A stretch of DNA of 64,000 nt, taken from Marinomonas spartinae. Its GTDB lineage: Bacteria > Pseudomonadota > Gammaproteobacteria > Pseudomonadales > Marinomonadaceae. Made by a program: the position numbers and the translations under genes. Below are positions 38,755 through 50,041 of this stretch, in pieces. The notes below the pieces were generated by a model that saw only the letters and a program-made list of their open reading frames with translations, ran no database searches and was not told where the DNA came from. Every line of letters starts with the position of its first letter. Position 1 is the first letter of the stretch. The stretch lies in NCBI RefSeq assembly GCF_900089775.1, contig NZ_FLOB01000008.1, positions 1 to 64,000 of the forward strand, read 5' to 3'.

Positions 38755-39579
38755 ATGTCTGGCAGCCTTCCTCATGCCATCTCAAGTCATACTATGATGA
38801 ACAACCCATCATCAGGCTATTCTGCGTTTGACCAGCGCCACGATGATAGTAATGATCAAACCTCCCTTAATGCAGTCAATGCTAAAGCCTCCAGTGATTT
38901 TGTGATTCGACTGTCCGAACAAGGACAAGCTTTGTCTCAAAACCGTGATAAAGAGTCCGATCGTGTCAACGAGAAAGCCAGTGACGACAAAGAACAACAA
39001 AAAGAAGGGGCGACTAAAAAGGCGCTTGATCAGGACAACGACTTAACGCCAGAAGAAGAAAAACAAGTAGAGGAACTAAAACGGCGAGACCAAGAAGTAA
39101 GAGTTCATGAACAAGCTCATGCTTCTGTTGGCGGGGTTAAAACAGGCTCTCCTTCTTACACTTACACCCAAGGTCCTGACGGTAAGCGATACATCACAGA
39201 TGGCGAAGTCTCTATCATCGTTAATCCGACGTCTGACGATCCTGAAAAAACCATTTCTGATATGGAACAGGTGTATCGTGCCGCTTTGGCTCCTGCCGAA
39301 CCCTCCAGTGCTGATAGGAAAGCGGCAGCTGAAGCACAGGCTATTATCCAGCAAGCGAGACAACAACTTGCTAAGCAGCAGCAGGAAAAGCTTTCCACTC
39401 CAAATAGCCACCTAGCTGATTCGAATGTAAATAACACGCGCAATCAGACAGATGCTACAGAGGTTTCCCAAACCCTCTCATCGCAAATAGATACTACCTC
39501 CAGCGTGCAAAATAGTAGGTCCAATGCGTATAAAGACGGCATCAGCCGAAGGGGTGATTTTTTAAATCAGATCGTTTAA
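38755..39579 (+). CDS. Putative metalloprotease-like protein (SprA-related / CJM1_0395 type)
   Basis: 274 aa with a low-complexity, charged N-terminus (residues 1-105, rich in Ser, Asp, Lys, Glu), a conserved core, and another Gln/Ser/Asn-rich tail. The core reads EEEKQVEELKRRDQEVRVHE then QAHASVGGVKTGSPSYTYTQ and DGKRYITDGEVSI; HEQAH (His118-Glu-x-x-His122) is a metalloprotease-type zinc motif, and this core is typical of proteins annotated as putative metalloproteases of the CJM1_0395 family. No signal peptide is seen. Enzyme activity has not been established for the family to my knowledge. It stands between pta and the pilus genes. Confidence 0.72.
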   Translation: MSGSLPHAISSHTMMNNPSSGYSAFDQRHDDSNDQTSLNAVNAKASSDFVIRLSEQGQALSQNRDKESDRVNEKASDDKEQQKEGATKKALDQDNDLTPEEEKQVEELKRRDQEVRVHEQAHASVGGVKTGSPSYTYTQGPDGKRYITDGEVSIIVNPTSDDPEKTISDMEQVYRAALAPAEPSSADRKAAAEAQAIIQQARQQLAKQQQEKLSTPNSHLADSNVNNTRNQTDATEVSQTLSSQIDTTSSVQNSRSNAYKDGISRRGDFLNQIV

Positions 39580-39647: not shown

Positions 39648-40109
39648 ATGGCAATGTCCCTTACTAAACAGCATGGTTTTACCCTATTAGAACTAATGGT
39701 GGTAATTGCTATTATTTCAATTTTAGCGGCATTTAGTGCCCCAACGTTTGTACGTCAAATCACGAAAGCAAAACTGGTTGAGGCGGAAAATTTGGCCACC
39801 CAAAACCAGTCTTTAGTAGAAGAATACATCCTTCTGAACGGTAAATTTCCAGCTGAACAGGCCTTTAAAACGCTGACTCAACCCCTTCCAGATGACTCAA
39901 TAGCCAAAAGTATTAGGGTCACAAATCCAACTAAAGCGACAGGAAATATTGTCATCACACTTAATGATGATACCGGCATCGATGCTGGTCAAACCATTAC
40001 CTATACTCGTGATAAAAACCGTCAGTGGCATTGTGAATCCGATTTGAAAACATCGGTTTTACCCCCTAAGTGCACCAGTATTAAGACATCGCCTTTGGAG
40101 GGCAATTAA
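39648..40109 (+). CDS. pilA: Type IV major pilin-like protein
   Basis: 153 aa. A short basic leader ends KQHG, then the mature N-terminus FTLLELMVVIAIISILAAFS with Glu at mature position 5, the hallmark of class III prepilins; the hydrophobic helix is followed by a globular domain with two Cys near the C-terminus (CESDLKTSVLPPKC) that probably form the D-region disulfide. It is processed by the prepilin peptidase encoded three genes on. First gene of the pilus string; whether it is the main subunit or a minor pilin cannot be told. Confidence 0.9.
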   Translation: MAMSLTKQHGFTLLELMVVIAIISILAAFSAPTFVRQITKAKLVEAENLATQNQSLVEEYILLNGKFPAEQAFKTLTQPLPDDSIAKSIRVTNPTKATGNIVITLNDDTGIDAGQTITYTRDKNRQWHCESDLKTSVLPPKCTSIKTSPLEGN

Positions 40110-41066
40110 ATGACCCTAGAAGAAATTCTCCTGAGAGCCACTCAGTCTAATGCGACAGACATACATATTGAGCAAACCAAAGAACATATTCAGGTTTCCC
40201 TGCGTCATTTAGGGCAAGTCTCGCCGCTAACTAAGCTGGATGCATCCAACACACTAATTAACCGAGTAAAAATGCGTTCCAATTTAGACCTATCTGAAAC
40301 ACGGCGTAATCAAGAAGGACAGTTTACTTTCTCTCATCAACAACAAGATACTTTTGTGCGAGTGAGTATCATCGCTACTGTAAAAGGTGAAAAAGTTGCA
40401 ATGAGGCTGTTGCCAGAGAAGTGTCGCTTTGATCTCGATAGAATTGGTATGCCCCCCTTGTTATTAAAGGCCTTAAAATATGCGCTTGATATGGGCAGTG
40501 GCTTAATTTTAGCCTGTGGGGCAACTGGTGCTGGGAAAAGTACCACGCTATATTCTTGCTTAAATTATCTAAATAAAAAGGGGAATAAAACACTCTTCAC
40601 TATAGAAGACCCCGTCGAGTATGAGATACCCAATGTATACCAATGTGAACCTAATCCAAGCATTGGGCAACACCCAACGACTATATTAAAATCGCTACTG
40701 AGACAAGACCCAGATGTTATCATGATTGGTGAAATCAGAGATTCGGAAACAGCCAATCTCGCTTTATCCGCTGCTTTAACAGGACACTTAGTCTTAGCGA
40801 CATTGCATACCAACTCAGCGTTAGATGCGGTTTATCGATGTCATAACTGGAATGTAGATTTTTTCTCATTTGTTAGCTCTGTCCGTTTGATTATTCATCA
40901 AAACATGAACTATCAAAAAGACAGCCAACATGCACGGTTCACTGCCCTTGCTCCTAGATGGCAAGGGACCCTACCTTTAGATTACCAAACTCTATTATCC
41001 TCACCTAAGCTCTGGTGTGCTTACAATAAATCCAATATTCATAGTGATGTCGATGCCTTGGTATAA
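40110..41066 (+). CDS. pilB: Short PilB/GspE-type pilus assembly ATPase
   Basis: Secretion ATPase of only 318 aa; ordinary PilB has about 570. The N2 domain (NATDIHIEQTKEHIQVSLRH) and the ATPase core are present: Walker A GATGAGKSTTLYS, Asp box FTIEDPVEYEIPN, Walker B DPDVIMIGEIRDSETA and His box TGHLVLATLHTNSA. Missing are the whole N-terminal MshEN/N1 domain and the C-terminal four-Cys zinc element. Its ATG follows the pilin stop directly. The intact catalytic motifs argue for function rather than decay; PilT-like size, but the sequence pattern is that of the GspE/PilB group. Confidence 0.8.
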   Translation: MTLEEILLRATQSNATDIHIEQTKEHIQVSLRHLGQVSPLTKLDASNTLINRVKMRSNLDLSETRRNQEGQFTFSHQQQDTFVRVSIIATVKGEKVAMRLLPEKCRFDLDRIGMPPLLLKALKYALDMGSGLILACGATGAGKSTTLYSCLNYLNKKGNKTLFTIEDPVEYEIPNVYQCEPNPSIGQHPTTILKSLLRQDPDVIMIGEIRDSETANLALSAALTGHLVLATLHTNSALDAVYRCHNWNVDFFSFVSSVRLIIHQNMNYQKDSQHARFTALAPRWQGTLPLDYQTLLSSPKLWCAYNKSNIHSDVDALV

Positions 41067-42117
41067 GATCCAATCTCAAAAAGACCACAAGCAGTACCAT
41101 TTTTTTGACTCAGAAAAGGACTTGCAGCTCTTTCTTATTAACCAGGGAACGTGGCGAGTTAAATGGTCCGTTTGGCACCCAAAAAAATTTAATTACAAGC
41201 GATTATTAGGTTTCTACCAAGAGCTGCAGAGTGCGCTGCAATCTGGGTTTCAAATTAATCAAGCAATAGACAATCTGTCTCAGATAAGCAGCGACTCACA
41301 CCTTTCAAAAAACAGTCAAGCGATTCTAGAAGAAATGAAAAAGGGCACGGACTTTAATCGGATTATTTCCAACCTTAGTACCACTCACGCCCAAGCATAT
41401 TGCAAGTTAATCCGACCTGAAGGCTCAAGAGAAGATTTGGAGCAAAGTTTATCAGTGTCGATTTTACAATTAGAGACGCTGTTAAACTGGTCAAACCGAC
41501 TATTGAAAAGTATTGCTTATCCCTTTTGTATCATTCAAATCTCTCTGATTATGAAAATACTGCATACGTTCTTTTTGACCAAGGCGACAAGCCACCACCT
41601 ACTCGACATCCTATTGGATATCAGCCTTTACTCTATTACCACCCTAATACAAGGTTATGTTGCCATCAGCTTGGCCAACGGTAATGCCAGTAACCTATTT
41701 GAAAGGCTGAATCCACATTTTCGTTTAGCGAAATTATTTGCTCTTTTGGAGACAACACGTAAAACGGGCTCTCCTCTACAACAAGCACTTTATTCAATGC
41801 CTCGTTATTTTGAACACAGTGGTATAAAACACGATATCTTAATGGTGTATTACAAACTAAAACTTGGACAGGATTATCAGCAAAGCTTCCCAATATATTG
41901 GTTTCCCAATGAAGCAAGAGTTGCCCTACACTCCACTTCTCAAGGCGGCAGTATAGAACGAGCCCTCAAACTGGCAAAGCTCCAACACACTAAAAAATGG
42001 TCGAAAGCCGTGTCCTTATACGAAAAACTCATTCCAGCTTTGTGCCTGATCATCGCCGGTAGCTTTGTCACTTCATCTTTGTTATCGCTTTATAGACCAC
42101 TATTAGAGATCCCTTAA
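41053..42117 (+). CDS. pilC: PilC-type inner-membrane platform protein (divergent)
   Basis: 354 aa with two type II secretion F-like domains: the first about residues 55-180 (FYQELQSALQSGFQINQAID), the second about 230-345 (FALLETTRKTGSPLQQALYS, ALHSTSQGGSIERALKLA), each followed by membrane helices; the last helix is LIPALCLIIAGSFVTSSLLSL. PilC anchors the motor and the pilus base. Shorter than the usual about 405 aa, and more divergent. Its start overlaps the end of pilB: ATG codons at 41047 and 41053 are both possible. Stop is directly before the prepilin peptidase ATG. Confidence 0.78.
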   Translation: MPWYKIQSQKDHKQYHFFDSEKDLQLFLINQGTWRVKWSVWHPKKFNYKRLLGFYQELQSALQSGFQINQAIDNLSQISSDSHLSKNSQAILEEMKKGTDFNRIISNLSTTHAQAYCKLIRPEGSREDLEQSLSVSILQLETLLNWSNRLLKSIAYPFCIIQISLIMKILHTFFLTKATSHHLLDILLDISLYSITTLIQGYVAISLANGNASNLFERLNPHFRLAKLFALLETTRKTGSPLQQALYSMPRYFEHSGIKHDILMVYYKLKLGQDYQQSFPIYWFPNEARVALHSTSQGGSIERALKLAKLQHTKKWSKAVSLYEKLIPALCLIIAGSFVTSSLLSLYRPLLEIP

Positions 42118-42912
42118 ATGTTATTAACTCCAACTCAATCGTCTTTTTTTGCCCTTATCATTCTTAGCTTTGGCAGCTTTGCTGCTTTATTTACTGTTCG
42201 CTGGCCGCGTTTAAGCGAGTATCTATGGCAAAAGGAGGCGCACAATGCTCTCGGTATACCTTTTGAGGCTGAAATACCAGAAAGCATATCGACTGGACGC
42301 TCACGGTGCGAGAGTTGCCATCACACACTCTCTTGGAAAGACTTAATCCCAATACTTAGTTATGGCTTGTTACAAGGCCGATGCCGATATTGCCAAATGC
42401 GGATTTCACCACATTATGTCCTTATAGAAAGTACTTGCTTATGTATCTGTCTCCCTCTTTTAATAACTTGCCACGACCTAATAGAGCTGTCACTCAATAG
42501 CCTATTGATGTGTTCCTTGCTTACTGCTGCCATTATCGACTACCAGCATAAACTCATTCCAGACGAGTGTTGTTTAATTGCCCTTGCCGCCGCTCTACTC
42601 CTAAACATCCACTCGGGCACATTGGAAAATGCGGTTCTTGGTATGATTGTGGGGTATAGTGCTGTTTACCTTCTGCGTTGGGGATACTTGAAAATTAGAA
42701 ACATTGAAGCCATCGGGTTGGGAGATGTCAAACTTCTTGCTACGCTTGGAGCATGGCTAGGGGTATTACATTTAACTACGTTGTTACTCTATGCTAGCTT
42801 AATAGGGATATTGTATATTTTACTGTACCGTGAAAAAAACAAAGAGCCGATTCCCTTTGGACCGTTTTTGTTTCTTTCAGGGATCATTCATTATTATTAT
42901 TTGAATTTATGA
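42118..42912 (+). CDS. pilD: Prepilin peptidase / N-methyltransferase
   Basis: Aspartic peptidase of family A24 that cuts and methylates prepilins (264 aa). A cytoplasmic loop carries the two CxxC pairs (CESCHHTLSW, CRYCQMRIS) typical of the methyltransferase domain; the two catalytic Asp are in IDYQHKLIPDE and GLGDVKLLA. Seven to eight hydrophobic segments. ATG follows the pilC stop directly (TAAATG) and its own stop overlaps the coaE start (ATGA). Confidence 0.9.
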   Translation: MLLTPTQSSFFALIILSFGSFAALFTVRWPRLSEYLWQKEAHNALGIPFEAEIPESISTGRSRCESCHHTLSWKDLIPILSYGLLQGRCRYCQMRISPHYVLIESTCLCICLPLLITCHDLIELSLNSLLMCSLLTAAIIDYQHKLIPDECCLIALAAALLLNIHSGTLENAVLGMIVGYSAVYLLRWGYLKIRNIEAIGLGDVKLLATLGAWLGVLHLTTLLLYASLIGILYILLYREKNKEPIPFGPFLFLSGIIHYYYLNL

Positions 42913-43517
42913 CTGTAGAAAAAAAAATACCTATTGTTGGACTGGCTGGTGGCATCGGGTCAGGAAAGTCAACTATTGCGACTATTTTTAATGAACTCGG
43001 AATACAAAGTGTTGATGCCGATGACGTTGCTCGTGACGTTGTTGCTGTAGGGTCTTATTGTCTCAATGAGATCCAGAAGCATTTTGGCAAAGAGATATTG
43101 CAACAAGATGGTTGTTTGAATCGTAAAGCCCTCCGTGACATTATTTTCAAACAGCCTAAAGAGAAGCTGTGGCTTGAGTCCTTAACTCATCCAATTATTC
43201 GCGATAACCTTCAAACGAGATTAGCTCAATCAACTTCAACATACGTACTATTGGTTCACCCTCTTTTATTTGAGACAAAACAGAACACTATTTGCAGATT
43301 GACGGTTGCTATAGATGCCTCTTCTAAAACTCAAAGGGAAAGAGTATTAGTAAGAGATAATGTATCTTCGGAGCAGATAGATAGTATCTTTGCCAGTCAA
43401 TTAACTAATGAAGAGCGTTTAAAAAAAGCTGATCTCATCATCAACAATGATAATGATATTAATGATTTAAGAAATAAAGTAAAAAAATTACATAATCAAA
43501 TTTTAGAGCTATTATAA
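42909..43517 (+). CDS. coaE: Dephospho-CoA kinase
   Basis: Last step of coenzyme A synthesis (202 aa). P-loop GLAGGIGSGKSTIA, VDADDVARDVV, LTHPIIRDNL and VLLVHPLLFE, then the lid region QRERVLVRDNVSSEQ. The ATG overlaps the pilD stop by four bases. pilBCD-coaE-yacG is the standard gammaproteobacterial order. Confidence 0.94.
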   Translation: MTVEKKIPIVGLAGGIGSGKSTIATIFNELGIQSVDADDVARDVVAVGSYCLNEIQKHFGKEILQQDGCLNRKALRDIIFKQPKEKLWLESLTHPIIRDNLQTRLAQSTSTYVLLVHPLLFETKQNTICRLTVAIDASSKTQRERVLVRDNVSSEQIDSIFASQLTNEERLKKADLIINNDNDINDLRNKVKKLHNQILELL

Positions 43518-43534
43518 GAGAACGAGTATTAAAA

Positions 43535-43741
43535 ATGACCATGATTGCATGCCCTACTTGCCAAAAAAAAACAGAATGGAGCACCGATAATGTTGATCGC
43601 CCTTTTTGCAGTGCAAAATGCAAGTTAATTGACCTAGGGGAATGGGCTAGCGAGTCTTACGCCATCCCACAGCAGACATCAGATGAAGAGGAAATATTTT
43701 CCGGTACGCTAGAGTCAGACCCAAATAAATCATTTCTTTAA
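43535..43741 (+). CDS. yacG: DNA gyrase inhibitor YacG
   Basis: 68-aa zinc protein that binds gyrase B in E. coli. Zinc ligands are seen in CPTCQKKTEW and FCSAKCKLIDLGEWASESY, the family core; the acidic tail is variable. Located 17 bases after coaE. Confidence 0.92.
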   Translation: MTMIACPTCQKKTEWSTDNVDRPFCSAKCKLIDLGEWASESYAIPQQTSDEEEIFSGTLESDPNKSFL

Positions 43742-43768: not shown

Positions 43769-45001
43769 ATGGATAGTAGCGATTTTGCAAATAAAAAAGC
43801 TTTGCTCATAGAAGATATGGCCGAAGCTCGCATCATGCAAAAGAAAATGCTAAGCGATTTTGGCTTTCAGCACATTGAAATTGCGATGAAAGCGGAAACA
43901 GCGATGGAGCTACTAAAAACACAATCTTTTGATGTTATTTTATCTGATTACAACCTCGGTAATGGTAAAGACGGCCAACAACTTTTGGAAGAAGTTCGAC
44001 ACTCCAATCTTATTCCTAATACTGCGACCTACTTGATGGTAACGGCGGAAACGTCTATCGAAATGGTAATGGGGGCTATTGAATTCCAACCTGATGGCTA
44101 CATTACCAAGCCGTTTTCACAAGCTGTTTTACAACGACGCTTAAGCAAGCTGTTAGAGATGAAGAGTCGCCTCTATACAGTCAATAAAGCCTTAGATCAA
44201 AAAGATTACGATAAGGCCATGGAAGAAGCAAAAAAGGTTATGGAACAGCACCCTTCTTTAGAGGGGAAATGTCAACGAGTTATCGGCGATTGCCTATTAG
44301 AAAAAGAGCAATATGAGCAAGCTTTAACCTTGTTTGGCAATATCTTGCAAGATAGAAAGATGCCATGGGCTCTTTTTGGTGAAGCCAAAGCCTGTTTCTA
44401 CATGGGGATTCTCGATAAGGCGGAAAATAAATTTCGACAGTTGATGCTTGATAATCGCTTTTTTGTTAGTGCTTATGATTGGCTTGCTAAAATAAAAACT
44501 GCGCAAAAAAAACATCACGAGGCGCAGTCCATTCTACTAGAAGCCCTGCAACGCTCTCCCAAAAATTTACTAAGACAAATCCACCTTGGCGAGCTAAGCT
44601 TTACAATAGGTGATTATTTAACAGCAGAAATGGCTTTTCGCCGTGCTGTATTTCTTGCCAAACACTCTTGCTACAATACATCGGGGGTCTATCTCCACCA
44701 CATTGAGTCCATTGTCAAACTCGCTGAGTCTGCACCCTTACAAAGCAGACAAAAAGAACAATTTAATATTACACTTAAAAAAATACATCGTTATTTTTTC
44801 GAAGAGCCAGATACCAGAGCAAAAACTTATTCTTATCAACTAGAATTGGCCCTGTTAGAGAAAGATTTGGTTACAGCAAAGGGCTTTTTGAAGCTTTGGG
44901 AACAAGAAGCAGAGTCCGGTGAGGCTACAGCACCAACCGACCAACAACTTACTCATTACCACGTCGCTTTTGGGGAACAAAATGAAGAAAATGGACATTA
45001 G
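43769..45001 (+). CDS. Receiver-TPR response regulator (copy 1)
   Basis: 410 aa. An N-terminal CheY-like receiver (about 8-130) keeps all key residues: acidic pair Glu15-Asp16, phospho-acceptor Asp60 in ILSDYNLGNGKDG, Thr in MVTAETS, Lys in ITKPF. The remainder is all-helical with TPR-like repeats (for example DYDKAMEEAKKVMEQHPS, EQYEQALTLFGNILQ, LDKAENKFRQLM), so the output is protein-protein interaction and not DNA binding. It lies 27 bases after yacG and overlaps the kinase gene after it by 20 bases, a clear two-gene signalling unit. A paralogue (46419-48080) lies in mirror orientation. No named family member recognised. Confidence 0.88.
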   Translation: MDSSDFANKKALLIEDMAEARIMQKKMLSDFGFQHIEIAMKAETAMELLKTQSFDVILSDYNLGNGKDGQQLLEEVRHSNLIPNTATYLMVTAETSIEMVMGAIEFQPDGYITKPFSQAVLQRRLSKLLEMKSRLYTVNKALDQKDYDKAMEEAKKVMEQHPSLEGKCQRVIGDCLLEKEQYEQALTLFGNILQDRKMPWALFGEAKACFYMGILDKAENKFRQLMLDNRFFVSAYDWLAKIKTAQKKHHEAQSILLEALQRSPKNLLRQIHLGELSFTIGDYLTAEMAFRRAVFLAKHSCYNTSGVYLHHIESIVKLAESAPLQSRQKEQFNITLKKIHRYFFEEPDTRAKTYSYQLELALLEKDLVTAKGFLKLWEQEAESGEATAPTDQQLTHYHVAFGEQNEENGH

Positions 45002-45635
45002 TACTATCTTAGCAAGCGCCATCCATGAGAGTAAGAACCAAGTTGGCACTCTTTTATATCAGCTCCAAGGACTCAAGGAGTCAATTCCTGAGAGTGATAG
45101 TAAAAATAAAAAAATTACGGTTATTGAAGAGTCTTTAAAAAAGCTCAATGACGAGTGGGTGGAATACCTTTACTTATATAAACTGGCTTCGGATGGGTAT
45201 CAGCTTCATGTCGATACCTTTTCTATTGACGAATTTTTAGATGATCAGGTCTTTGCACTACTCGGCTCTGCAAATGCAAAAAACCTCAAATTAACTTATG
45301 CATGCCCTGAAAACCTGATGGGTGTATTTGATGAAAGATTGATGACTGCCGTCGTAGGCACTGCTGTATATAATGCACTGAGGTTTGCCCGAAGCTCAAT
45401 AGAAATCAATGCCGCTATAGAAGATGACTACCTCGTTATTGGCATTGATGACGACGGAGATGGATTTGATAATAATGAAGAGGAAGATTTAGTCGAATCC
45501 AACACGGGACTAGGCCTCTACTTTGCTCAGCTCTCAGCGAATGCCCACATCAGTAAAGGAAAATCAGGCTTCTTGAAAAAAGAAAGCTCACCGAGGTTAA
45601 AAGGTGCTCGCTTAGCTATTTATCTCCCGCAATAA
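44982..45635 (+). CDS. Soluble sensor-less histidine kinase (copy 1, motifs intact)
   Basis: 217 aa, no membrane segment or sensor domain. It begins directly with a dimerisation helix containing His15 in AIHESKNQVGTLLYQL (H box), then a second helix, and a GHKL ATPase domain: N box VVGTAVYNALRFARSS, G1 DDDGDGFDNNEEED, G2 NTGLGLYFAQL. The ATG at 44982 has GGGGAAC just before it and overlaps the receiver-TPR gene. The TPR protein is its likely partner. Input must come through another protein. Confidence 0.82.
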   Translation: MKKMDISTILASAIHESKNQVGTLLYQLQGLKESIPESDSKNKKITVIEESLKKLNDEWVEYLYLYKLASDGYQLHVDTFSIDEFLDDQVFALLGSANAKNLKLTYACPENLMGVFDERLMTAVVGTAVYNALRFARSSIEINAAIEDDYLVIGIDDDGDGFDNNEEEDLVESNTGLGLYFAQLSANAHISKGKSGFLKKESSPRLKGARLAIYLPQ

Positions 45636-45673
45636 ACTGGCTTCTACTCCCATATATATTTATATCATCAATG

Positions 45674-45705
45674 AGTGCCACATAAGTACAAAGCCTAGTG
45701 GCACT
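45674..45705. terminator. Possible weak bidirectional terminator between the two kinase genes
   Basis: AGTGCCAC and GTGGCACT are an 8-bp inverted repeat with a 16-base loop between convergent genes. No T run, so termination is uncertain. Confidence 0.35.
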
Positions 45706-45723
45706 ATGCATTCCAACACCATA

Positions 45724-46416
45724 TCAGGGAATAAAAATCTGGAAACGACTGCCTCCTAACTCGCCATCATTATCCAACTTCACCCAACCTTTTACTTTTT
45801 TACTATGATGCATATGGGCAATGCTATGGCAGAAATACCAAGCTAACATTTGATTTGTTAAATTAGCCAACTCTTTTTCAGTTACCACATTCGCAAAGTC
45901 TTCCAAAACAAAGTCAGGGTAGCCGTGACCATTATCTTCCAGTGTAATAATCGCACCATCATCAACAGGACAAACCTTGATATCAATACGATTATCTGTG
46001 TATCGGGCCGCGTTGACCAGTGCTATGTCTAAAACTTGAGAAAGTATTGCTGCATCACTATAAACATATATTTGCTCATCAATATCAAAATCAACTTGTA
46101 CGTTAAATCGTGACAATAGCGCAGCATGAGAAATCATTCTCTCTTCAATCAGCTCCAGTATATACACTTCTTTGAACTGCAAGCTCAATTTTTCATTTTC
46201 AAGTAAATAAAGACTATAAAGCTGCTCAGTGCTATTTTGTAGCCGAGTGACTTCATAGTGCAGCGTTTTTGCCTCAAATCTATCTAATGAAATCCCTTTA
46301 TCATCTGTTGGCATCTTCTCAAGCGTATGCTGCAGCAAATTTAGAGAGTTTTTCATATCTTGAATAGACGCATCCATTACGTGATAAAACTCATTTTTTC
46401 TTTCTACGTCGTTCAT
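45724..46416 (-). CDS. Degenerate histidine-kinase-like protein (copy 2)
   Basis: 230 aa, paralogous in layout to the kinase at 44982-45635. The dimerisation helix reads SIQDMKNSLNLLQHTL: the expected His is Gln19. The ATPase domain keeps an N box (IALVNAARYTDN) and a G1 box (TLEDNGHGYPDF), but the G2 GxGLG segment is replaced by ANLTNQMLAWYFCHSI. It is therefore unlikely to be a normal autokinase; it may be a phosphatase, scaffold or decoy. The ATG comes two bases after the stop of the receiver-TPR gene upstream. Confidence 0.8.
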   Translation of the reverse strand: MNDVERKNEFYHVMDASIQDMKNSLNLLQHTLEKMPTDDKGISLDRFEAKTLHYEVTRLQNSTEQLYSLYLLENEKLSLQFKEVYILELIEERMISHAALLSRFNVQVDFDIDEQIYVYSDAAILSQVLDIALVNAARYTDNRIDIKVCPVDDGAIITLEDNGHGYPDFVLEDFANVVTEKELANLTNQMLAWYFCHSIAHMHHSKKVKGWVKLDNDGELGGSRFQIFIP

Positions 46417-46418
46417 GA

Positions 46419-48080
46419 CTATAATTGCTCACTTTTAGAGATTAGCTTTTTCAACTTAATATAACGAGAATACTGCTTATGAGTCGATGTAATATGACCC
46501 GCTCTCGTTAAGGCTTGTTTACATTCTGCTAATAAAAATGCGTCCTTCGATTTTTTCTCCATCTTTTTTAGGGCCGCTTGAATATAGTTCATATTAAGCC
46601 CTGGATGATGAGGCGATATTTTTATAGCTTCTTCAAATAACTCAATTGCTTCATCAAAATCATTTTGTGCGTAAGCGGCCAATCCACTGCCATTGATTGC
46701 TTTCGCCTTACCTCTTGCACCAATTGGAATAGGCTCATCTAAAAAATCGGACATGGCTTTGGATTGAGCGCTTGTTAACGTATTGTTGGCGGCTAACTCC
46801 TTCCATGCTTGTTTAGCCTCTTCTTCTTTGCCTGCTAAATATAATGACTTACCTAGCTGAATACGAACATCGATTGTGTTTGAATCAGGTGATTGCTCTA
46901 TTAACTTCTGTGCAGATGCCAATGTTTCATCACGGAGCTTTGTTTGCCCTTGGCGAGCATAAACTCGACTCTCAGATAGTGCTTTTTTAATACGAATTTC
47001 ATGATCATTTGTATACTTTTTAGAGACCTTATTTAGCGCAGCCAACGCCTCAGAAGCCATTCTTTTTTTATCCGATCCGGTTAATTCCGTTGCCGCCTCA
47101 GACAAAATTTCAGCTAATTGAAAATACTGCTCGGGAGACTCATTAATGGTGTTTGTGACAAGCTTGAGAGTTTGTTGACTCGCTTTTACCGCGCTCTGCG
47201 AGTCACCATTCTCTAAACTGATATCGACCATTTTTTGCTGTCGCTCATGGCGCAATGGAGAGATCTTTAAGGCTGACTCTAATACTTCTTGAGCCTGAGT
47301 ATGCATTCCTTTATTTTCGAAACTTAGCGCCAGTAAGTCATATGCTTGAATACACTGGGGGAATTTTTGAACAAGAGTCTGGGCCGATTTAATCGCTTTA
47401 TTCCAGTCCTCCTTGGCAACGTGCATACGAACCAGACCCAACAAAGCCCAGTCTATGTCTCTCACGGCTAACGTCTCTTCACAGAGGGTCGTCAGCTTTT
47501 CCCATGATTTTAATTCTAAATAGGCATCGATAAGGGTTCGTTTACACCAAGGAGAGTAGCGGCCTTCATGCTGAATGTGCGCATTACATAGTGTTACCAC
47601 TTTTTCATAATGCTTATTAGAAAAGGCCTTTTTTATATCTTCTAATTCAACATTCTGGGCAAATAGGCGCTCTATTCGTTTACTTAATACTCCTTCAGTA
47701 AAAGGCTTACCAAGGTAATCATCTGGTGATGATTCTAAAATACCAAATACAATATCACGACTTGTCTCAGCAGAAATAATAACAAAAAAAGCCGAGGGCT
47801 GGATGAGGTTTAGCTGACGTAACTCATCCAGCACTTGTAAACCATTTTTCCCATTACCTAGCCGAAAATCACATAAAATCAGATCGTATTTCTTTGCCCG
47901 ACATGCATCAATCACCCCTTTTCCTGTCGCAGTTTGATCAATCTGCCCAATGCCAATTGTCGTTAACATTTGCTTAACAGATTTTCGAGAGTTCTCAAAC
48001 TCATCAGCAATCAGTGCTGAGTAGTTTGCATAAGATGTAAAAGCCTGGGCGCTTGTTTTTTTAAGAGTGTCTTTATTCAC
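46419..48080 (-). CDS. Receiver-TPR response regulator (copy 2)
   Basis: 553 aa. The receiver (about 20-145) has Asp26-Glu27, phospho-acceptor Asp71 in ILCDFRLGNGKNG, Ser in IISAETS and Lys in LGKPF, matching the other copy motif by motif (shared LGNGK-G-Q-L). The helical part has more TPR repeats than copy 1, among them DWNKAIKSAQTLVQKFPQCIQAYDLLALSF (residues about 215-245) and a C-terminal AYAQNDFDEAIELFEEAIKI, and is about 140 residues longer. Start is GTG at 48080 with a weak ribosome site, 10 bases after the GntR gene stop, so it may be translated with it. Output is probably protein binding. Confidence 0.87.
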   Translation of the reverse strand: MNKDTLKKTSAQAFTSYANYSALIADEFENSRKSVKQMLTTIGIGQIDQTATGKGVIDACRAKKYDLILCDFRLGNGKNGLQVLDELRQLNLIQPSAFFVIISAETSRDIVFGILESSPDDYLGKPFTEGVLSKRIERLFAQNVELEDIKKAFSNKHYEKVVTLCNAHIQHEGRYSPWCKRTLIDAYLELKSWEKLTTLCEETLAVRDIDWALLGLVRMHVAKEDWNKAIKSAQTLVQKFPQCIQAYDLLALSFENKGMHTQAQEVLESALKISPLRHERQQKMVDISLENGDSQSAVKASQQTLKLVTNTINESPEQYFQLAEILSEAATELTGSDKKRMASEALAALNKVSKKYTNDHEIRIKKALSESRVYARQGQTKLRDETLASAQKLIEQSPDSNTIDVRIQLGKSLYLAGKEEEAKQAWKELAANNTLTSAQSKAMSDFLDEPIPIGARGKAKAINGSGLAAYAQNDFDEAIELFEEAIKISPHHPGLNMNYIQAALKKMEKKSKDAFLLAECKQALTRAGHITSTHKQYSRYIKLKKLISKSEQL

Positions 48081-48090
48081 TTCATACCCA

Positions 48091-48708
48091 TTAATCTATT
48101 GACCTTAAAAACGTTGTCAACTTTTCACCCGCGTCCTCAATGTGTTTTTTCAAAAGAGACAGCGCGGCCGACTTCTTTTTTAACTGAATCAACGTCAGTA
48201 GCTCATGATGATCTTGTTGGCTTTGGCTTTTATAGCCCATCGGTCCATATTGAAAGCCAATATAACGAGTCACTTGTTGATTAATACTAGACACAGTCTT
48301 CTGTAAGGTTTGCTTATCGGCAGGCAAATATAAAGCTTCATGAAAAAGCCAATTCAAATGCCCCTTCTCAATTAATGTTAGCTCATCTTTTTCAAGTATA
48401 CTTAAGATACTGTGTGCTTTTAACATATCTTTTTGTTTAATAAAATCAAACGAGAATGACAGAAGAAGAACTTCTAACTGTGACCGCATTAAATACAGTT
48501 CTTCTGCTTCCTTCCAATTTAAATGAGGAACCATCAGCCCTGCTTTACCATGGGGAACTAGCCAGCCTTCTGCCTTTAAGGCAAGTAAAGAGTCTCGTAT
48601 TGGTATTCTACTTACTCCATAGCGCTTTGATAACTCAGCCTGCCTTAATGGTGTTCCCTTAGGTAGCACATTATTTAAAATATCGTCTTTTATTTTCTCA
48701 GAAAGCAC
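48091..48708 (-). CDS. GntR-family transcriptional regulator (FadR-like)
   Basis: 205 aa. A winged helix at the N-terminus (LPKGTPLRQAELSKRYGVSR, IPIRDSLLALKAEGWL) is followed by an FCD-type all-helical effector domain (EAEELYLMRSQLEVLLL, HLNWLFHEALY, HHELLTLIQLKKKSAALSLLKKHIE). Effector unknown. Start taken as GTG at 48708, with AGGT six bases before it; a TTG at 48714 is too near that site. It lies between a BenE transporter gene and the receiver-TPR gene on the same strand and may regulate the transporter. Confidence 0.85.
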   Translation of the reverse strand: MLSEKIKDDILNNVLPKGTPLRQAELSKRYGVSRIPIRDSLLALKAEGWLVPHGKAGLMVPHLNWKEAEELYLMRSQLEVLLLSFSFDFIKQKDMLKAHSILSILEKDELTLIEKGHLNWLFHEALYLPADKQTLQKTVSSINQQVTRYIGFQYGPMGYKSQSQQDHHELLTLIQLKKKSAALSLLKKHIEDAGEKLTTFLRSID

Positions 48709-48730
48709 AATCAAACCTACTTTGATCTTA

Positions 48731-49903
48731 TCATCTTTTGAAAAGCTTAAATGCTAATAAAAAGATGCCTCCTAGAATAATTCCCCAAAATGCCGAAGCA
48801 ACGCCGAAAAATGACACGCCAGATGCCGTAACTAAAAATGTTACTAACGCTGGTTCCCTGCACATATCGTCAGACATGGCACTCTTTAGATTCATTGCGA
48901 TGGTTCCGAGCAATGCAATACCCGCTACGGCTGCAACCATCGCTTGAGGGAAAGCCGAAAAAAGCGCCACCACTGAGGTCCCTGCCAACCCTGCGGCCGT
49001 ATAAAAAATACCAGCAGACAATCCTGCAATATAACGACGCTTAGGATCCTTATGACAATCATCTCCAGAGCAGATAGCGGCAGTAATTGCAGCTAGGTTA
49101 AAGGCAAAACCTCCTAACGGAGCTAAGACAATAGAGGTTAACCCTGTCCAACTAATTAATGGAGAAACAGGTGTATTATAACGACTACTTCTCATGACAG
49201 TCACACCAGGAATATTTTGTGATGTCATCGTGACAATAAATAAAGGCACACCAACACCGAGCAACGCACCAAGATTCCATTGTGGCCAAACCCAAACAAA
49301 CTGCCCTAGACCAACGGGAATATTAGTGAATAAAGCACCATGACTTCTCGCTAAGGCGTAGACAATACCGACGGTTAATACCGCCAGAACAACATACCTA
49401 GGCGAAATTAACTTAATAACAAGGTAAGTTGCAATCATCGTTGCAACCAAATAAGGGTCACTTTTGAGCGAGGTGAATATGCCTAGGCCAAACTCAAAAA
49501 GTACTCCAGCAAGCATAGCTGATGCAATGGGTACTGGCACCAGTCGCATGAGTTTTTCAAATACCCCAGATACACCGGTTAATAGAGTCAGCACACCGGC
49601 AAAAATAAATACGCCAATGGCATCCGCATAGCTGATACTTCCTAAACTGGTTGCTAATAGAGCCGCTCCTGGCGTTGACCAAGCGGTAATAACAGGGGTT
49701 TTATACCATAAGGAAAGAAAAAAACAGGTAAGACCCATGCCTAAACCTAGCGCCATAATCCAAGATACGGTGATATGAACGTCTGCCCCTGCGGCTTTTG
49801 CTGCCTGAAAAATAATGGCAACAGAGCTTGCGAAACCGATGAGAACCGCAACTAACCCTGCCATCACTGCACTAAAGCTTAAGTCTTTAAGTATAGACTG
49901 CAT
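48731..49903 (-). CDS. benE: BenE-type benzoate/H+ symporter family transporter
   Basis: 390 aa inner-membrane protein, about 12 hydrophobic segments, BenE family. Motifs: AWSTPGAALLATS, GVFEKLMRLVPVPIASAMLAG, MTSQNIPGVTVMRS and SPLISWTGLTSIVLAPLGGFAFNLAAITAAICSG (residues about 275-308). Family members import benzoate, but no benzoate-degradation genes are seen nearby, so the substrate is open. Start ATG at 49903 has TTGAGGA upstream; the in-frame extension to 50014 lacks both a ribosome site and family match. Confidence 0.85.
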   Translation of the reverse strand: MQSILKDLSFSAVMAGLVAVLIGFASSVAIIFQAAKAAGADVHITVSWIMALGLGMGLTCFFLSLWYKTPVITAWSTPGAALLATSLGSISYADAIGVFIFAGVLTLLTGVSGVFEKLMRLVPVPIASAMLAGVLFEFGLGIFTSLKSDPYLVATMIATYLVIKLISPRYVVLAVLTVGIVYALARSHGALFTNIPVGLGQFVWVWPQWNLGALLGVGVPLFIVTMTSQNIPGVTVMRSSRYNTPVSPLISWTGLTSIVLAPLGGFAFNLAAITAAICSGDDCHKDPKRRYIAGLSAGIFYTAAGLAGTSVVALFSAFPQAMVAAVAGIALLGTIAMNLKSAMSDDMCREPALVTFLVTASGVSFFGVASAFWGIILGGIFLLAFKLFKR

Positions 49904-49990
49904 ACTGGAATCCTCAAACAGCATGATTGAAAAAACCAACCATAGCGGAAAGGAGATAATTTTTGTATACATTTTTGAATTTAGGTATAA

Positions 49991-50041
49991 AAAAACCAAA
50001 TTCAGAGCACTCACGCATAATTGCTTACTCTGAATTTGGTT
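49991..50041 (-). terminator. Terminator of the ehu operon
   Basis: AACCAAATTCAGAG and CTCTGAATTTGGTT form a perfect 14-bp stem with a 20-base loop; on the minus strand seven T follow. It ends the ABC-transporter operon before benE. Confidence 0.88.

Follow-up and report, generated by a model that had tools for sequence, protein, structure and literature searches.

DivL of Caulobacter has been described as a protein with a histidine kinase fold and several PAS domains in which the acceptor histidine is replaced by tyrosine, the H, N, G1, F and G2 boxes otherwise being kept, and which has an intact partner receiver (PMC4211667). It is reported to bind the phosphorylated regulator without kinase activity, and a protein of this type can stabilise the phosphate instead of removing it (PMC4211667). 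In Corynebacterium glutamicum, one of two paralogous two-component systems carries a catalytically inactive kinase, the pseudokinase ChrS, which arose through a frameshift in laboratory evolution (PMC9491836). Here we analyzed a 64,000-nucleotide stretch of the Marinomonas spartinae genome (contig NZ_FLOB01000008.1, positions 1 to 64,000; hereafter the window), in which two gene pairs, each encoding a receiver fused to tetratricopeptide repeats (TPRs) and a small soluble histidine kinase or kinase-like protein, face each other. We consider it probable (roughly 0.6) that these are two unequal modules of one old family placed tail to tail, a complete two-component system (pair 1, P0001 and P0002) beside a conserved kinase-dead module (pair 2, P0003 and P0004). 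P0003 is like DivL in its predicted kinase fold, its non-His acceptor position and its intact partner receiver; however, it has no sensor domain, its G2 box is also lost and its partner carries a TPR output. Since Pfam finds no PAS domain in P0003, we did not file it as DivL. As with ChrS, one of two related systems appears to have an inactive kinase, although P0003 is natural and has been kept through 16 genomes.

Rap proteins of Bacillus and the regulators that they control are distinct proteins. These phosphatases are TPR proteins of a phosphorelay (PMC3035606), whereas at this locus the TPRs are fused to the receiver itself. The published entries found to share both domains consist of a domain list and a protein name: an archaeal census lists the architectures REC-PAS-TPR and TPR-REC (PMC5847659), and a proteomics table includes an Aeromonas protein named 'Response regulator with TPR repeat, putative' (PMC10272739). 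PpoS/PpoR of Marinomonas mediterranea, a two-component system from the same genus, was considered as a match and rejected as unrelated; it is described as being of the BarA/UvrY type with a DNA-binding regulator (PMC8523701). We found no characterised pair of a REC-TPR protein and a soluble kinase in the open literature, in agreement with the first-pass annotation of the window, which had called the pair type possibly undescribed, although absence from print is not established.

That annotation had depicted the four genes as two convergent receiver-TPR/kinase pairs whose partner genes overlap or nearly touch and whose kinases have neither membrane nor sensor domains, and in these respects it was accurate. 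Coordinates and lengths were confirmed (Table 1), P0001 and P0002 overlap by 20 bp, and 2 bp separate P0003 from P0004. P0001 has 94% identity to a protein named M. spartinae. Pfam matched Response_reg and several TPR families in both P0001 and P0004, and HATPase_c was the sole family above its cut-off (26.4 bits) in P0002 (27.7 bits) and in P0003 (30.9 bits), with no HisKA, membrane or sensor domain detected in either; the best 25 NCBIfam matches for each protein were all under cut-off. The receiver residues reported earlier (Asp, Lys and Thr/Ser) are retained in both receivers of the window, as is the shared LGNGK stretch (LGNGKDGQQLL and LGNGKNGLQVL).

The two kinases, however, are not the equivalents they had been taken for, as neither the phospho-acceptor His nor the G2 box is present in P0003. 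The His is missing from all 19 P0003-type open reading frames (ORFs; 16 genomes, three read twice), which have Asn (8), Lys (7) or Gln (4) instead, and in the same 19 ORFs a motif with an invariant Gln and Trp stands where the G2 box should be. The His is present in every P0002-type ORF (45 of 45; 42 genomes, three read twice), in all 40 kinases from outside the genus that were fetched through the neighbouring receiver gene, regardless of the His, and in 80 of 80 named outside kinases, although the two patterns used in the scan that retrieved these included the H-box. Other parts of the P0003-type proteins are kept, including the N-box Asn and the G1 Asp (19/19 each) and the first G1 Gly (18/19). 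No other invariant His occurs in the two helices of the dimerisation and histidine phosphotransfer (DHp) domain among the 18 Marinomonas rows of our alignment (A4). The residue following the acceptor position is Asp in 19 of 19 ORFs. In HisKA kinases, a Thr or Asn four residues after the His is needed for phosphatase but not kinase activity (PMC3510030); at this position the P0003-type ORFs have Asn (14), Gln (4) or Thr (1), so that 15 of 19 fit the rule, Gln being a looser fit.

The P0003 reading frame is full-length in 16 of 16 genomes. The ratio of non-synonymous to synonymous substitution rates (dN/dS) was 0.045 between loci L052 and L056 (L numbers denote fetched loci and G numbers genomes), and dN was 0.036 and dS 0.753 between the window and G044, with dS near saturation; two further comparisons were saturated. 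Because dN/dS is about 0.05 and the frame is full-length throughout, P0003 is still under purifying selection and is not in plain decay. The predicted fold of P0003 comprises a DHp hairpin and a catalytic and ATP-binding (CA) domain (predicted local distance difference test score, pLDDT, 84.7). Among the 50 structural matches listed for this model were HK853 complexes and CpxA, and the best query-normalised template modelling score among them (0.73) was to the pseudokinase DivL (4q20_A). By its sequence P0003 is kinase-dead, from which we infer that it would also lack kinase activity.

An orthologue of P0001 was found in all 48 genomes of the genus, the genome of the window included, and the receiver Asp, Thr/Ser and Lys are intact in 45 of 45 P0001-type ORFs. 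P0002 has the H-box His, N-box, G1 and G2 of an active HisKA-type kinase, as do 45 of 45 ORFs of its family, the Pfam HisKA model itself being unmatched, and pair 1 is best read as a minimal two-component system with all its parts. In the window, Asp71, Ser103 and Lys125 of the P0004 receiver are intact, and among 16 further P0004-type ORFs scored the triad is intact in 15, which comprise all 15 of the adjacent type. The remaining ORF belongs to a second, dispersed copy (L065, 6118-7731, in G036) whose receiver Asp is changed to Asn, and no kinase of the P0002/P0003 family was seen in the 13 kb stretch read around it. The model of P0004 shows a receiver followed by a long TPR superhelix (pLDDT 91.2), which is consistent with the protein-binding output suggested earlier; the 50 fold matches listed were all TPR-type proteins, none of them described as receiver-TPR. 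Sequence searches of solved structures with P0001, P0004 and P0002 gave, among the rows shown, receivers (CheY-like and others), TPR proteins, kinases and chance matches. Elsewhere in the genome of the window, two receiver-TPR genes stand in tandem (L049 on contig 21, 7378-8646 and 8732-10000) with no kinase of the P0002/P0003 family seen beside them, and the second has lost one acidic-pocket residue (IIES, compared with IIED in the first).

The first-pass annotation had explained the two pairs by an inverted duplication. They are indeed related, as the protein alignments of P0001 with P0004, spanning receiver and TPRs (28%, E 3e-44), and of P0002 with P0003, over their length (24%, E 2e-16), are both significant and the likeness is therefore not due to chance. 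The duplication itself was rejected, as the pairs are not each other's nearest relatives and nothing meaningful was found in DNA similarity between the two halves (best blastn E 0.045). In a kinase tree of 96 sequences (24 P0002-type, 16 P0003-type, the 40 fetched outside kinases and 16 of the 80 named ones; bootstrap not fully settled), the P0002-type and P0003-type proteins each formed a single clade (100/98 and 100/99, respectively). P0002 grouped with the HESKN kinase of L214, on the same side as the HEIKN-type kinases (97/89), while P0003 was placed among HDMKN kinases. Forcing the two into one clade cost 44.9 log units (approximately unbiased (AU) test, p=0.008, with long branches present), and a quick tree of 95 receiver-TPR proteins separated the two Marinomonas groups in the same way. 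The trees conflict on one family of HDLKN type (f38), whose kinases fall with P0003 but whose receivers fall with P0001. On this sequence evidence, the two pairs are distant cousins from two old subfamilies placed side by side.

Both kinds of gene have a wide distribution outside Marinomonas. An order-wide search with the receiver-TPR alignment (E<=1e-40) matched 109 of 293 genomes and 45 of 118 genera, with 13 of the 109 genomes belonging to Marinomonas. We fetched 60 of the 119 non-Marinomonas matches, with at least one from each of the 44 other matching genera. In 40 of the 60 loci, a small kinase (<300 aa) of the same family adjoins the receiver-TPR gene in the same orientation, with spacings from a 176 bp overlap to a 158 bp gap (longest frames). 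Two of the 20 loci without an adjacent kinase end at a contig edge (L184 and L217), and several families have the receiver-TPR protein without such a kinase. A scan of named genomes with the outside kinases retrieved 182 relatives, and among the best 80 the receiver-TPR gene lies upstream in 72 and downstream in two; these 80 include Cellvibrio, Saccharophagus, Hahella, Pseudoalteromonas, Nitrospirae bins and Betaproteobacteria. In the Nitrospirae bins, one of them named Candidatus Magnetominusculus, the receiver-TPR gene is paired with an HDMKN kinase (L128-L131 and L133), and in Chitinolyticbacter and Oryzomicrobium the order is reversed, with the kinase preceding the receiver-TPR gene (L141 and L145). 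The receiver-TPR/soluble-kinase system is old, widespread and apparently unstudied. None of the 20 genomes outside Marinomonas with several matches had two receiver-TPR matches within 10 kb, as judged by eye.

Within Marinomonas, pair 2 is present in 16 of 48 genomes (P0004 at E<=1e-60). In all 16 carriers, the window included, it directly adjoins pair 1, convergent to it and between pair 1 and the GntR-BenE genes. Gene order was read at 35 other Marinomonas loci, of which 15 carry pair 2 and 20 come from the 32 genomes that lack it. All 35 share the order coaE-yacG-P0001-P0002; in the 15 loci with pair 2, the gap between the convergent pairs is 9-102 bp and GntR and BenE follow P0004 in the same order as in the window, and in 17 of the 20 non-carriers, P0002 leads directly into GntR-BenE. 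GntR and BenE had no match in the stretch read of the other three (L256-L258). M. mediterranea, a species with published genetics (PMC8523701), appears to have both pairs, since two protein clusters bearing its name, P0070 and P0209, correspond to locus L058: the receiver-TPR protein of L058 is identical to P0070, and the L058 kinase departs from P0209 at 1 of 219 residues. G012, which is nested among carriers, has 139 bp in place of pair 2; both genes are gone with no remnant detectable by blastn, and loss there therefore seems to have taken the pair as a unit.

A kinase contacts its receiver through the DHp surface beside the acceptor. On the preferred reading of the locus, the soluble kinase P0002 would phosphorylate the receiver of P0001, and this phosphorylation would alter binding by the P0001 TPR superhelix. 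P0003, with its dimerisation helices, nucleotide pocket (N-box and G1) and the surface beside the lost His retained, would neither take up nor pass on phosphate. Because it keeps the DHp surface and has lost phosphate uptake in two ways, we take it to be a binder of P0004 that dephosphorylates or reads it, so that P0003 may act on P0004 as a phosphatase, a phospho-reader or an adaptor. Given that DivL can stabilise phosphate, we make no firm choice between phosphatase and reader. The phosphate on P0004 would be supplied by another kinase, either P0002 or an unlinked one. A more specific version, which we regard as doubtful, is that P0003 reads phosphorylated P0004 and, via P0002 or shared TPR clients, lets the state of one receiver influence the other. 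On that version, the locus would be a naturally evolved circuit and a minimal, sensorless and soluble counterpart of the DivL logic, within a widespread system in which input and output may both be protein binding. The locus offers a natural comparison: a live and a putatively dead kinase of one pair type lie 88 bp apart, and some relatives have only the live one. A general question thereby becomes testable, namely what role remains for a two-component kinase unable to phosphorylate. Two-component genes side by side are ordinary, whereas a conserved kinase-dead module in a widespread and apparently unstudied family is worth a test at the bench.

Several observations weigh against this reading. 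Pair 2 is absent from two-thirds of the genomes (32/48), and the P0001 tree (36 genomes and one outgroup) requires three changes in its presence, so that it is dispensable; as the P0003 and P0004 rows each form one clade, one gain and two losses fit best. The constant adjacency is one inherited event and not 16 independent ones, and is therefore not independent evidence of function. P0003 diverges faster than P0002 (32-49% and 56-74% identity to the window, respectively, leaving out the close relative L064), and its dN/dS (0.045 and 0.048) was the highest of the four genes in both computable comparisons, the others lying at 0.025-0.043. DivL, when tested, is reported not to dephosphorylate DivK, so a kept DHp surface need not mean a phosphatase (PMC4211667). 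Finally, the receiver alpha-1 positions that we take to form the kinase interface, from RR468 numbering, the rewired residues being named in the titles of structures among the P0003 fold matches, are E, A, M and M in the P0001 family and N, S, S and M in the P0004 family; with three of four differing, P0002 is not favoured as the donor for P0004.

The same receiver differences argue mildly against the cross-talk between pairs that had been suggested, and they bear on the strongest alternative, a single circuit in which P0003 heterodimerises with P0002 and tunes it while P0002 serves both receivers. This would account for a P0004 receiver without an active kinase inside its own pair and for the adjacency of the pairs in 16 of 16 genomes with both, and it has a precedent in C. 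glutamicum, where the ChrS pseudokinase is reported to raise output via cross-phosphorylation of ChrA by the paralogous kinase HrrS (PMC9491836). However, the co-occurrence is uninformative because the adjacency goes back to a single event and every genome of the genus has pair 1, P0002 and P0003 are only 24% alike and belong to different subfamilies, and residues of DHp alpha-1 as well as receiver alpha-1 differ between the pairs. In the C. glutamicum work, moreover, the native kinases heterodimerised whereas the truncated pseudokinase gave no significant heterodimer signal (PMC9491836). We therefore regard a single circuit as unlikely.

Less probable again is that pair 2 is decaying, with P0003 a relic and P0004 driven by small phosphodonors or unrelated kinases. 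The patchy distribution of the pair, the faster divergence and slightly higher dN/dS of P0003, and the Asp to Asn change in the dispersed, kinase-free copy of P0004 (L065) could all be read in this way, but the low dN/dS, the uniformly full-length frame, the new invariant residues and the loss of both genes together in G012 speak against it. That both pairs are ordinary, with P0003 active through another residue or a non-canonical mechanism, would suit its HATPase_c score and its intact N-box Asn and G1 Asp but is very improbable given the G2 loss in 19 of 19 ORFs, the Gln, Asn or Lys at the acceptor position and the want of another invariant DHp-helix His.

Table 1 Features of the locus and its surroundings (positions in the window)
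Feature	Position	Strand	Details
P0001, receiver + TPR, 410 aa, subfamily A	43769..45001	+	Domains by Pfam; Asp60 phospho-acceptor codon 43946-43948
P0002, sensorless soluble histidine kinase, 217 aa	44982..45635	+	His15 codon 45024-45026; H-box IHESKN, N-box, G1 and G2 (NTGLGL) all present
Gap separating the convergent pairs	45636..45723		88 bp
P0003, predicted pseudo-histidine kinase, 230 aa	45724..46416	-	Gln19 (codon 46360-46362) at acceptor His position
P0003 residues 188-195, NQMLAWYF	45832..45855	-	Replaces G2 box
P0004, receiver + long TPR superhelix (predicted), 553 aa, subfamily B	46419..48080	-	GTG start
Pilin, PilB-like, PilC-like, PilD, CoaE, YacG run	39648..43741	+	Upstream of P0001
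GntR/FCD regulator	48091..48714	-	10 bp upstream of P0004
BenE transporter	48731..50014	-	Same strand as GntR and P0004

The operon-like spacing to pil-coaE-yacG on one side, with 27 bp between the end of yacG and P0001, and to GntR-BenE on the other was as first described and is conserved across the genus. That the family is generally linked to type IV pili was rejected, since blastp (E 1e-5) found no match to the window pilin or PilB-D in the fetched flanks of 140 non-Marinomonas loci; CoaE, YacG, GntR and BenE of the window likewise had no match there. A defence-system reading was also set aside, the single PADLOC match, to P0001, being marginal (E 0.0038). Promoter- and terminator-like sites at the locus were no more numerous than in shuffled sequence.

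Ten representatives of recurrent neighbours outside the genus were scanned, which gave two methyltransferases (one PF08003; presumably cmoA and cmoB), LysR, glyQ, glyS, a receiver, a member of a lipid A acyltransferase family, a PAS kinase, an FHA protein and one unmatched protein. In several families, glyQ follows the receiver-TPR/kinase pair at a short distance downstream, as in a cluster of nine loci that includes L188, L201, L221 and L228, and it often has glyS after it. Within 40110-42117 of the window, the PilB-like ATPase is only 318 aa long and the PilC-like protein matches T2SSF weakly (E 1.4e-11); the pil genes therefore look short or diverged, though they are kept in the genus. A SprA-related protein (PF12118) is encoded before the pilin gene (38755-39579) and occupies the same place in many of the Marinomonas loci that reach it.

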